A stretch of 44,697 nucleotides of DNA from a virus: the IMG/VR virus record IMGVR_UViG_3300020411_001693, positions 1-44,697 of that record; one strand, written 5' to 3'. Below, in pieces: positions 1-44,697 of this stretch. Position 1 is the stretch's first letter. Every line of letters starts with the position of its first letter. The position numbers and the translations under genes were made by a program. The notes below the pieces were generated by a model. That model was not told the origin of the DNA and ran no database searches. It worked only from the letters and a program-made list of their open reading frames with translations.

Positions 1-1991
1 GATGCTAGGTTGATGTTCTCTGAAGAACCCCAGTTATCGCCTGTTGCTTCAAAGTTCCATGTTTTATCTCCGTCTCCAGAGTCAACTGTGAATCCTGCAC
101 CGTCAGCAGCTGAGTCATCAGCAGCTCCTGTAGCAACTTGGAAGTTCTTATCATCAATGTTTACTGTAGTAGAATTGATTGTGGTAGTCGTTCCATTTAC
201 AGTCAGGTTGCCTGAAATAACAGCGTTGTCGTTGATAGTTGTAGTACCACCATTCGAGTCTATCGTAAGATTACCCGATGATGTTGTTATAGTATTACCA
301 TCAAGTGATAAGTTATCAACTGTTGCAGATCCTGAAACCGCTAGAGCTCCAGCTACGTTGGTTCCATCTAAGTTTGTAGTACCATCAACGTCTAAGTTTC
401 CATTGAAATCAGCATTTCCTGCCAATGTCAATGATGATGCCATGTCAACCGCACCATCTATATCAACAGCATCTAAGTTTGTAGTACCATCAACGTCTAA
501 GTTTCCGTTGAAGTCAGCGTTCCCTGCTAGAGTTAGAGTAGACGCCATATCAACAGCACCGTCAATGTCTACAGCATCTAAGTTTGTAGTGCCATCTACA
601 TCTAAGTTTCCGTTGAAGTCAGCGTTCCCTGCTAGAGTTAGGGAAGATGCCATGTCAACAGCACCATCTATATCAACAGCATCTAAGTTTGTAGTGCCAT
701 CTACATCTATGTTTCCACTTAGATCAATACTTCCATTGACTGTTAGTGTTGAACCGTCAAATGTTAGGTTGCCTGAATCTTCTAATGCACCAGATGAACC
801 CGCTATAACAACACGATTGTTTGTTAGGTCACTAACTGTTGCTGAAGATAGAACTGTCTCTGCTCCAGAGATATTTGCTCCACCGTTACCGTCTATCGTA
901 CCAGTAACAGTAAGCCCAGCACCAACTGTTGCAGTTGTGGATACTAACTGAGTTATAGTACCAACACCTGAGACACCCATGTTGTCTAAGTCAGTGTGCC
1001 CATCTACATCCAAGCTCACGCTTATTGTTTGTGAACCTGTGACTGCTAGTGTTGAACCGTTGAATGTTAGGTTACCACTATCTTCGATCTCTCCTGATGT
1101 ACCAGCTAAGACGACTCTACCTGATGTTAGGTCAGATACTTTTGCTGTATCTGCTACAAGTGTGTCTATATTTGCTGTGCCATCAATATATAAATCTTTC
1201 CATTCTAAACCAGAAGCACCTAAGTCTCTAGCGTTATCTGAGCTAGGAACTAGGTCACTATCAAAACGACCTGTTGCTGTTATAGTATCACTCGTTGCGT
1301 TTCCTAGATCTACGTTACCATTGATCACGCCATTGCCAGTAACCGTTAGGTTTCCAGCTACTGTTGCATTCTCGTCAACAGTTAGTGTGTCAATCTTCGC
1401 AGTACCATCTATGAATAAATCTTGCCATTCTAAATCAGATTGTCCTAAGTCTCTTGCTCCGTCTGTGCTAGGAGTCAAGTCACTATCAAAACGACCTGTT
1501 GCTGTTATAGTATCACTTGTTGCATTTCCTAAATCTGTGTCTCCTGTTACTACTATGTTAGTAGTTGTTAGGATTGACCCATCAAAGGTTAGATTACCAC
1601 TGTCCTCTAGTTCCCCAGATGAACCCGCAATAACGACCCTATTATCGGTAAGGTCTCCGATTTTTGCTGTGTCTGCCAGTAATGCATCGATGTTCGCAGT
1701 ACCGTCAACGAAAAGGTTGTTCCACTCTTTTGTAGCTGAACCTAGATTATATGTGCCATCATCATCAGGAATAATATGTGAATCGACTTCACCACCAAAG
1801 ACAATATTATCAGTGTTCGCATCCCCTAAAGTTAGTGTGCCTCCATTGAAGGTAGTCGTACCAGTAACTTCAAGGTTACTGTACATAAAAACATCAGAAG
1901 CAAAAGTTGATACACCAACGTGTGAGGAAAGACCCGCCACAACTTGTTGATTCTTTCCACCAACCTTGGCTAGTTCTCTTGCCCTAGACAT
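1..1991 (-). CDS. large repetitive virion protein, tail-fibre/adhesin-like (C-terminal end outside window)
   Basis: The frame is open from the ATG at 1991 to the window edge (about 663 codons), so the 3' end is missing. The protein is low-complexity and rich in G, T, D, N, S and V. It is built from degenerate modules: a block resembling DLTxxRVVxAGSSGELEDSG occurs three times, and a 35-residue unit around LDAVDIDGAV repeats tandemly. No enzyme motif is seen. Such proteins are typical of the distal tail or fibre proteins of T4-like cyanophages, and a block like DLTSGRVVFSG also occurs in the 1847-aa protein of this window. A TATAAATA late promoter sits 32 bp upstream, which fits a late structural gene. 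The host-adhesion role is inferred from composition and context. Confidence 0.75.
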   Translation of the reverse strand, partial: MSRARELAKVGGKNQQVVAGLSSHVGVSTFASDVFMYSNLEVTGTTTFNGGTLTLGDANTDNIVFGGEVDSHIIPDDDGTYNLGSATKEWNNLFVDGTANIDALLADTAKIGDLTDNRVVIAGSSGELEDSGNLTFDGSILTTTNIVVTGDTDLGNATSDTITATGRFDSDLTPSTDGARDLGQSDLEWQDLFIDGTAKIDTLTVDENATVAGNLTVTGNGVINGNVDLGNATSDTITATGRFDSDLVPSSDNARDLGASGLEWKDLYIDGTANIDTLVADTAKVSDLTSGRVVLAGTSGEIEDSGNLTFNGSTLAVTGSQTISVSLDVDGHTDLDNMGVSGVGTITQLVSTTATVGAGLTVTGTIDGNGGANISGAETVLSSATVSDLTNNRVVIAGSSGALEDSGNLTFDGSTLTVNGSIDLSGNIDVDGTTNLDAVDIDGAVDMASSLTLAGNADFNGNLDVDGTTNLDAVDIDGAVDMASTLTLAGNADFNGNLDVDGTTNLDAVDIDGAVDMASSLTLAGNADFNGNLDVDGTTNLDGTNVAGALAVSGSATVDNLSLDGNTITTSSGNLTIDSNGGTTTINDNAVISGNLTVNGTTTTINSTTVNIDDKNFQVATGAADDSAADGAGFTVDSGDGDKTWNFEATGDNWGSSENINLA
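366..725 (-). repeat. 105-bp tandem repeat inside the coding sequence
   Basis: The sequence atctaagtttgtagt recurs at 366, 471, 576 and 681, exactly 105 bp apart. The first three copies are similar along their whole length; the fourth diverges after about 45 bp. The unit is 35 codons, so the repeat keeps the frame of the fibre-like protein and can change copy number without breaking it. Confidence 0.9.
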
Positions 1992-43118: not shown

Positions 43119-43403
43119 TTAACTCGTTGGATAAGAACCAGTGATGGTCTTCTGCTTCTCCATGTAATCTCTGTCTGCTAGGACTAACTTCTTCGCCATC
43201 TCCTGCTTTCTCCAGTAGTCTATCCTCTCATCAAATGCAGTTCTGTCAATCTTCTTTAGAAGTCTCTCTCTAAATCTCCACTGTGGATTTGACCCTGAGG
43301 TATCAAGAGCAGTAGCGTCAGCAGCATCAGAAAGTACACCGTCTTTTTCTTTGAGTGTATTGTTAACAGAGCTATCAAACTCTGCGTTTCTTGCTATAGA
43401 CAT
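43119..43403 (-). CDS. unknown charged protein (94 aa)
   Basis: The first 40 residues are probably disordered (NTLKEKDGVLSDAADATALD). A basic helical segment (WRFRERLLKKIDRTAFDERI, then DYWRKQEMAKKL) follows. There is no membrane segment or cysteine pattern. An exact late promoter lies 25 bp upstream. Function unknown. Confidence 0.55.
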   Translation of the reverse strand: MSIARNAEFDSSVNNTLKEKDGVLSDAADATALDTSGSNPQWRFRERLLKKIDRTAFDERIDYWRKQEMAKKLVLADRDYMEKQKTITGSYPTS

Positions 43404-43426
43404 CTGTTATCTGTTTGTTTCTACAC

Positions 43427-43630
43427 TTATTTATAAGACTCGTCATAAGATGGAGGGATGTGATGGTCATTCCAGTGCCTGATATTACCACCAACAATAA
43501 AACAGTTGGTGATTACAAGTTGAACCATGATAAGGGTTCTTATAATACAGATCCAGTTGTCATACTTCTTTGTTGTCTCATCATTGAAAGAACCTAAAGC
43601 ATACTTCCAGACCTTCCAGAACTCTTTCAT
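43427..43630 (-). CDS. small membrane protein (67 aa), cyanophage type
   Basis: MKEFWKVWKYALGSFNDETT leads into one hydrophobic helix (IIRTLIMVQLVITNCFIVGG) at about residues 29-48, then a His-rich tail. Proteins starting in this way are familiar from cyanomyoviruses; the function is unknown. The ATG overlaps the stop of the 36-aa ORF (ATGA). Confidence 0.6.
   Translation of the reverse strand: MKEFWKVWKYALGSFNDETTKKYDNWICIIRTLIMVQLVITNCFIVGGNIRHWNDHHIPPSYDESYK
43428..43435 (-). promoter_or_regulatory. T4-type late promoter (TATAAATA)
   Basis: An exact TATAAATA on the minus strand, overlapping the stop of the 67-aa gene and 25 bp before the ATG at 43403. Confidence 0.65.
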
Positions 43631-43737
43631 CCGAACGTCCGTACGTTGTAGTGTCTACGGACAGGTGGGTAAAGATCTTTCTTTACTCTTGCCTTCATGT
43701 ATATGCGAAGGAGTTGGTCAGTTGTTAGTGTCATCAT
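43627..43737 (-). CDS. very small basic protein (36 aa)
   Basis: It begins MMTLTTDQLLRIYMKARVKK and ends in a basic, proline-containing tail (YPPVRRHYNVRTFG). ATGA coupling to the 67-aa gene supports translation. As at thyX, the start lies a few bases after the T7 tail of a terminator and a -10-like TAAATT, with almost no leader. Confidence 0.5.
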   Translation of the reverse strand: MMTLTTDQLLRIYMKARVKKDLYPPVRRHYNVRTFG

Positions 43738-43749
43738 GATAATTTAGCA

Positions 43750-43777
43750 TAAAAAAAGACCCCTGTAAAGGGGTCTT
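43750..43777 (-). terminator. intrinsic terminator
   Basis: AAGACCCC and GGGGTCTT form an 8-bp stem with a 6-nt loop, followed on the minus strand by seven T and then ATGC. It is the downstream stop for the ncRNA transcript. Confidence 0.85.
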
Positions 43778-43789
43778 ACATATCGAAGT

Positions 43790-44042
43790 AATAACAAAAG
43801 GAGGGAGACCCCGAAAGGTCTCCTATGTTATAACGAAAAGGGGAAGGAAGGATTACTTATCGTACCAACATGAACAGGGAATCGCTAAAGCGAAAATTTG
43901 TTACTGCTCAACTCAAGTTCCTCTGGTAAAGGTTCACCTCCTTTAGGGAGGGCGAGTACCACCTCTAACTTGATGCATTACCCCGCCAAATTCCAACAGG
44001 GTTATTCTGCCACTTCCATGAGCGATGATCAGTCACTCATCT
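43790..44042 (-). ncRNA. candidate early non-coding RNA between psbA and the 36-aa gene
   Basis: A perfect sigma-70 promoter places the 5' end near 44042, and hairpin terminators lie at 43804-43823 and 43750-43777. The RNA would be about 240-290 nt. Its first bases form an 8-bp hairpin (ATGAGTGA with TCGCTCAT, 7-nt loop). Further on, CCTCC and GGAGG pair around CTAAA, and AAAGGAGGTGA within this hairpin is fully complementary to the 16S rRNA 3' tail. TCGC-TTTA-GCGA forms another hairpin. No ORF longer than about 30 codons with a proper start is present. Two short protein-like stretches (containing HRSWKWQNNPVGIW, and LPKGGEPLPEELELSS) lie in different frames, so a decayed small gene is the main alternative. 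Confidence 0.5.
43804..43823 (-). terminator. hairpin, probable first terminator of the ncRNA
   Basis: GGAGACC and GGTCTCC form a 7-bp stem with a 6-nt loop; on the minus strand it is followed by CCCTCCTTTTG. The U-tract is short, so stopping may be partial. Confidence 0.5.
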
Positions 44043-44048
44043 GTATTT

Positions 44049-44077
44049 ATTATAACAGCATCTTCACTACGTGTCAA
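44049..44077 (-). promoter_or_regulatory. perfect sigma-70 promoter (TTGACA-N17-TATAAT)
   Basis: TTGACA (44077-44072), exactly 17 bp, TATAAT (44054-44049) on the minus strand; the start point is near 44042. AATAAATA, a late-like motif, overlaps the -10. It is the best promoter match in the window, yet no ordinary gene follows. Confidence 0.8.
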
Positions 44078-44181
44078 CTCTTTTTGGTGATATCTTATAT
44101 GCATTAGTTCTATCAAGGAGAAAGACCCTACTATGATTAGGTTGCAGACGGTCAGAGGATGAGTAAAATATTTCAAGGCAT

Positions 44182-44210
44182 AAAAAAAGACCCCTACTAT
44201 GTAGAGGTCT
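44182..44210 (-). terminator. intrinsic terminator of psbA
   Basis: AGACCTCTAC pairs with GTAGGGGTCT on the minus strand (10 bp with one G-U, 3-nt loop), followed by seven T and ATGC. The G-U pair becomes a C-A mismatch on the plus strand, so it works for the minus strand. It starts 12 bp after the psbA stop. Confidence 0.85.
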
Positions 44211-44221
44211 GTGTGATCGGA

Positions 44222-44697
44222 CTAACCGATAGCGGGTGCTGTAAGAGCAACAGTTGAAGACTCAGCAGAAGCAAGGTCTAGTGGGAAGTTGTGTGCATTT
44301 CTTTCATGCATTACTTCCATACCTAGGTTTGCTCTGTTTAGAACATCTCCCCATGTAGGAACGATCTTTCCGTTAGCATCAACTACAGACTGGTTAAAGT
44401 TGAAACCGTTGAGGTTGAATGCCATTGTACAGATTCCCATAGAGGTCAACCATACACATACAACTGGGAATGTTGCTAGGAAGAAGTGTAAACTTCTTGA
44501 GTTATTGAAAGAAGCATATTGGAATATGAGTCTTCCGAAGTAACCGTGTGCAGCAACGATGTTGTATGTTTCTTCTTCTTGTCCAAACTTATAGCCGTAG
44601 TTTTGACTCTCGTTCTCTGTTGTTTCTCTGATTAGAGATGATGTAACTAAAGAACCGTGCATTGCACTGAAGAGACTACCACCGAACATACCTGCTA
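44222..44697 (-). CDS. psbA: photosystem II D1 protein, C-terminal half (5' end outside window)
   Basis: The last 157 or so residues of D1 are present. [14 protein letters not shown] holds the non-heme iron ligand His215, [20 protein letters not shown] is conserved, [15 protein letters not shown] contains the QB-site Ser264 and His272, and [17 protein letters not shown] holds the Mn4Ca ligands His332, Glu333, His337, Asp342 and Ala344. A 16-residue C-terminal extension ([15 protein letters not shown]) follows the processing site, as in precursor D1. Phage D1 replaces the damaged host protein so that photosynthesis continues during infection. The gene is cut by the window end and carries its own terminator. 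Confidence 0.95.

Follow-up and report, generated by a model that had tools for sequence, protein, structure and literature searches.

The manA motif is the described RNA closest to the one considered here. It was reported by Weinberg et al. in 2010 with a pseudoknot marked by a question mark, and was proposed there, as it is listed in Rfam (RF01745), to be a cis-regulatory element and riboswitch candidate (PMC2864571). In the portions of the literature available to us, manA is already listed in cyanophages, always as cis-regulatory (PMC2864571, PMC9964418 and the review PMC12197685); since 2010 it has been treated as a probable switch acting in cis, in phages that are among the most common of the ocean, and no ligand for it was found in the literature searched. 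CfrI of cyanophage S-PM2, another non-coding RNA beside psbA, is antisense to the 3′ end of that gene (PMC9602691, PMC12197685). ROOL and GOLLD are structured phage RNAs of unknown function that often lie near tRNA islands (PMC12286853); they are much larger than manA, with other folds, and have no Rfam match within positions 43400-44697 of the DNA studied here. The T4 RNAs rnaC and rnaD, small and stable, are encoded by a T4-type phage directly beside tRNA genes and in this resemble manA, but they are shorter (139 and 119 nt); we rejected homology, as the rnaC/rnaD region gives no manA match at E up to 5. Finally, the put RNAs of phage HK022 lie downstream of early promoters and act without dedicated proteins (PMC9378689).

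The window, by which we mean the whole 44,697-nt stretch of viral DNA that was analyzed, contains one manA copy (Table 1). The first-pass annotation had proposed a non-coding RNA with its own host-type promoter at this site; the RNA is indeed structured and the promoter is shared across a family, but that family is a described one that the annotation had not recognized. Against the Rfam covariance models, the segment matches RF01745 at 109 bits (E 4.8e-29; model 1-192 of 192), passing the family cut-off of 55.2 bits, and it shares with the published motif (PMC2864571) this full-length covariance match, the cyanophage origin and the helices.

Table 1. Positions of features in the window and of manA copies that lie between tRNA genes.
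Record	Feature	Position	Strand	Remarks
Window	psbA, 3′ part	44695-44222	(-)	same strand as the RNA, upstream of its promoter
Window	psbA terminator	44210-44188	(-)	hairpin; separates psbA from the RNA
Window	sigma-70 promoter, TTGACA-N17-TATAAT	44077-44049	(-)	exact, 12/12; position relative to the motif conserved in the family
Window	-35 box, TTGACA	44077-44072	(-)	17-nt spacer, TG ahead of the -10 box
Window	-10 box, TATAAT	44054-44049	(-)	part of the exact consensus promoter
Window	5′-terminal 8-bp hairpin	44040-44018	(-)	first element of the manA motif; predicted fold
Window	manA RNA (RF01745)	44039-43837	(-)	full-length covariance match; divergent 'CCCTGTTGG' subtype
Window	conserved 3′ extension	43834-43788	(-)	outer stem GUUAUAACA/UGUUAUU around hairpin 43823-43804; compensatory changes among close relatives
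Window	intrinsic terminator, AAGACCCC-UUUACA-GGGGUCUU then U-tract	43777-43751	(-)	-13.7 kcal/mol; stem 43777-43756
Window	promoter-like TTTACA-N17-TAAATT, extended -10	43769-43741	(-)	9/12; -35 inside the terminator loop
Window	next gene, 35-aa ORF (MTLTTDQLL...)	43734-43627	(-)	reading frame kept in relatives
Window	67-aa ORF after the 35-aa ORF	43630-43427	(-)	
S-CREM1 (isolate)	tRNA-Leu	1333-1414		
S-CREM1 (isolate)	manA	1416-1630		
S-CREM1 (isolate)	tRNA-Asn	1630-1702		
ACG-2014f	tRNA	1106-1179		
ACG-2014f	manA	1181-1391		
ACG-2014f	tRNA	1393-1464		
L165, L197	manA			fills the gap between tRNA-Thr and tRNA-Ala

The divergent subtype to which the window copy belongs scores lower than the commonest manA subtype (109 versus about 190 bits) and is common to S-SSM7, P-RSM1, S-SSM4 and about 60 IMG/VR stretches. 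In an alignment of 20 non-redundant subtype members, 98% of the alignment cells are paired, a value that drops to 46-55% when the partner is slid by 1-3 columns; double-sided compensatory changes are found at 18 of the 41 base pairs, and none of 500 shuffles was as good as the real structure on four of five measures. The covariance search against cyanophage genomes that the first-pass annotation had named as a check, once run, returned both a known Rfam family and these doubly compensated pairs. The window core also contains CUAAAGGAGGUGAACC, within 43930-43960 (-), an 11-nt match to the canonical Shine-Dalgarno complement of 16S rRNA; it is not conserved in the other subtype members and is probably a coincidence. 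One might still suppose that a promoter and hairpins have come together by chance in an intergenic stretch with no functional RNA, given that a perfect promoter appears in 12 of 100 shuffled windows (0.12 expected by chance); at the level of sequence conservation this is refuted by the Rfam match and the covariation, and we give it almost no credence. Two hairpin loops that are almost invariant in the subtype, GGUGGU and ACCA, are complementary, and their pairing may account for the pseudoknot shown with a question mark by Weinberg et al. (PMC2864571).

The stretch holds no convincing gene, as had been noted at first pass: own-strand ORFs of more than 25 aa are absent inside the window RNA, the one exception being a 47-aa TTG frame, whose start lies upstream of the promoter. 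A conserved protein encoded in the manA stretch was likewise considered and rejected, as the annotated ORFs that overlap it fall mostly in different gene clusters and look spurious. Hypothetical proteins are annotated over manA in S-SSM7 (SSSM7_180), P-SSM4 (PSSM4_169.1), P-HM1 (PHM1_121), P-HM2 (PHM2_011/012) and S-SSM5 (SSSM5_127), in each case probably spuriously. PhotoRC-II (RF01717) has no match up to E 5 within 43400-44697, and no tRNA genes were found in the window. A strict-pattern search placed manA in three contigs of bacterial assemblies, which may be phage DNA.

The perfect TTGACA-N17-TATAAT promoter of the first-pass annotation is present and is the sole exact (12/12) consensus promoter of the window; the spacing from its -10 box leads us to expect a transcript start at about 44042. 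The 8-bp hairpin that had been described at the 5′ terminus is recovered in the predicted fold, and the 293-nt window RNA folds with z = -3.1. Across the family, promoters matching at least 11 of 12 positions are found in 75 of 79 unique manA upstream regions (12/12 in 24 of the 79), with spacers that are invariably 16-17; of 2000 random windows from the same loci, 12 reach 11/12. Given this conservation, the window promoter is not there by chance. A few bases separate the end of the -10 box from the first hairpin (a gap tallied in 49 copies, secondary to the count of 79 upstream regions), so that the motif would begin at the transcript start; judged from about 260 copies compared, the start-anchored promoter is common to the manA family. 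In 49 of 142 unique upstream sequences, a G+C-rich hairpin holds the -35 box in its loop or in an arm, and the T-run of that hairpin doubles as the promoter spacer. Such a fused terminator-promoter takes the form GAGGG-TTGACA-CCCTC-TTTTTTTATGC-TATAAT (e.g., L155, L006 and L217), and 43777-43741 of the window is possibly another instance.

The first-pass annotation had placed two hairpin terminators after the RNA. The second, with its strong stem and U-tract, stands and is the probable 3′ end of the window RNA; the first (43823-43804) has a strong stem but a weak, T-poor tail, would be weak as a terminator, and more plausibly forms the inside of a larger conserved 3′ hairpin, the inner arms of which co-vary between relatives. 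The manA core, like most of the stretch that follows, hardly varies in a set of six distinct close relatives that includes the window. The promoter-like element in the terminator possibly starts the next transcription unit, a reading that we keep tentative because the match is just 9/12; its layout is the grammar of the 49 fused manA promoters. The 35-aa ORF starts at 43737 or, more likely, at a second, conserved ATG at 43734, and the 484-bp gap previously reported between the end of psbA (44222) and the next (-) ORF start (43737) is confirmed. While RF01745 is filed as cis-regulatory, the window copy is cut off from this next ORF, about 100 nt from the motif, by the 3′ hairpin and the terminator. 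Farther on, a late-promoter-like TATAAATA occurs at 43435-43428 (-), a motif that is not enriched in the window.

We consider it somewhat probable that the window copy is made early as a discrete RNA of some 290 nt and functions as a free molecule. Soon after infection, host RNA polymerase carrying the principal sigma factor would initiate at the motif's first base; the core of about 200 nt would fold into the manA structure, followed by the conserved 3′ hairpin; and transcription would end at the terminator to yield a free RNA from its own transcription unit. The tight 5′ hairpin would protect the RNA end from 5′-dependent decay, and the discrete RNA probably acts in trans, through a host or phage protein or complex to which it would bind. 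The sequences themselves establish the family, the structure, the promoter and terminator, the start position across the family and the tRNA-bounded copies; we infer the early timing from the sigma-70-type promoter, and a stable free RNA and action in trans are likewise our inference.

In the alternative under which the family is filed, manA would be a cis-acting leader or riboswitch: on sensing a ligand, it would govern whether transcription stops at the downstream hairpins, and hence the 35-aa and 67-aa ORFs. Most manA copies do precede an ORF: among 97 non-redundant copies with enough downstream sequence, 65 have one within 120 nt with no terminator detected, an upper bound since the count misses imperfect terminators such as the new 3′ module described below. 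The remaining contexts have a terminator before the next ORF (21, including two at more than 200 nt), an ORF at a distance of 120-320 nt (8), a tRNA next (2) or nothing (1). In favor of a free RNA, a terminator stands 0-3 nt from the 3′ end of the motif in several relatives (L155, L156, L157, L160, L188, L205 and P-SSM7). A terminator stands before the 35-aa ORF in the window too, as such a switch would have it, but it lies clear of the motif and may itself contain the promoter from which the next gene is transcribed. A competing fold of the window RNA, in which the 5′ strand of P1 pairs downstream, has a slightly lower computed energy than the manA fold (-94.8 versus -91.3 kcal/mol with P1 forced), which makes attenuation conceivable, although this pairing is weakened in the close relative L171. 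Against control in cis, the first downstream genes of 263 manA copies form 37 groups without detectable similarity, including gp32, transaldolase, HSP20, ThyX, a mannose-6-phosphate isomerase domain, PurS and pyrimidine-dimer glycosylase, and the exactly tRNA-bounded copies have no adjacent ORF to control by translation. The choice of neighbor is not random, as gp32, T4-GC176 and talC make up 126 of the 263 first genes. On balance, we regard a cis-acting leader as rather unlikely.

Exactly one manA copy is present in each of 16 complete genomes of the annotated phage collection, at differing sites: behind gp23 in P-HM1 and P-RSM4, ahead of gp32 in P-HM2, behind pstS in P-SSM4, ahead of talC in P-RSM6, between regA and purL/hsp20 in P-SSM2 and downstream of psbA in P-SSM7. 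One copy per genome was considered as proof of trans action and is weakened by the glutamine riboswitch, a cis-acting control that is likewise at most single-copy in those 16 genomes; copy number is thus indecisive. A comparison with wcaG found nothing and is uninformative. The nearness of manA to psbA is incidental, to judge from the dozens of different genes that it adjoins, before or behind; among the isolates examined, P-SSM7 is the only one, besides the window, with manA in the psbA region. The terminator that had been assigned to psbA was found, and an antisense RNA like CfrI is ruled out, as the window RNA lies on the psbA strand, outside the gene and past that terminator; the distinction from CfrI drawn at first pass, on sense orientation and an intervening terminator, therefore holds.

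The most telling observation comes from three lineages in which manA precisely fills the space between two tRNA genes, leaving 0-7 nt free (Table 1). In S-CREM1, a tRNA gene ends 1-2 nt ahead of the motif, so that this copy, of the same family as the window copy, has no adjacent promoter of its own, whereas the window copy has one; PMC9964418, in the part available to us, lists it as cis-regulatory and passes over its tRNA flanks. Dozens of genome records of ACG-2014f match, and both flanking tRNAs are unannotated in the record examined (L324 = KJ019037). A tRNA-Thr/Ala/Asn array without manA occurs in Syn19, and promoter-driven manA runs directly into tRNA-Gly in S-SSM7, L199 and L183. A tRNA lies near manA in 10 of 269 contexts, a small minority. 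The 5′ end of manA is thus a transcription start in one setting and the 3′ end of a tRNA in another. As for the 3′ end of manA, one setting places a terminator there and another a site where RNase P is expected to cut. From the copies sandwiched between tRNAs or abutting tRNA-Gly, tRNA maturation would be expected to excise an RNA that is elsewhere defined by promoter and terminator. The simplest reading would be that the RNA itself, with defined ends, is the product. We raise the possibility, which falls just short of an even chance in our judgment, that manA as a whole is no riboswitch family but a discrete, stable, trans-acting RNA of marine cyanophages, made from its own start-anchored promoter or by tRNA-type processing, and a counterpart of the small stable RNAs in the tRNA clusters of other phages.

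The same tRNA-bounded copies bear on two further readings. A nascent-RNA antiterminator like HK022 put would bind polymerase as a start-proximal folded RNA, so that terminators are passed, and manA resembles put as a structured RNA downstream of a strong early promoter (PMC9378689), being start-proximal and indifferent to whether genes, tRNAs or terminators follow. Yet there is one manA copy per genome where many early promoters are expected in such phages, the copies inside tRNA arrays have no adjacent promoter, and put, compared by description, is about 70 nt with two stem-loops; we hold antitermination to be improbable. Alternatively, manA might be a portable 5′ leader that merely stabilizes or boosts whichever early transcript bears it, as a 5′ hairpin at the transcript start and an element ahead of many different genes could suggest; the hairpin alone would then suffice, leaving unexplained the conserved 150-nt core with its covarying helices as well as the tRNA-bounded copies, and we deem this very improbable.

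A conserved hairpin, GACCTAAGATGCAA..GGGCAGANGGTC, often with a T-run after it, occurs in L016 (8951-8987), L023 (4576-4612), L031 (3630-3667) and about 119 IMG/VR stretches; in each of the 97 copies that could be tested, it follows manA by no more than 40 nt. It matches no Rfam family, is absent from the window, and is apparently an undescribed optional 3′ module of manA RNA. In the open-access main texts searched, we saw neither the start-anchored promoter nor the tRNA-bounded copies nor this extra 3′ module mentioned. If a promoter fixes the ends of manA in some phages while tRNA processing does so in others, RNA or protein partners should be sought rather than ligands, for which existing strains would suffice, as S-CREM1, P-SSM2, P-HM2 and other phages with manA are in culture.

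In S-CREM1 (L323 946-1844), one strand carries a cluster of structured RNAs, with the wcaG, manA and abiF RNAs plus several tRNAs packed into about 0.9 kb. Downstream of manA and the 3′ module in L010 (3764-3834), and similarly in L033, there is a tRNA-Gly-like gene that scores 52 bits as a tRNA by Rfam in L010, is missed by ARAGORN, and is possibly a divergent tRNA.
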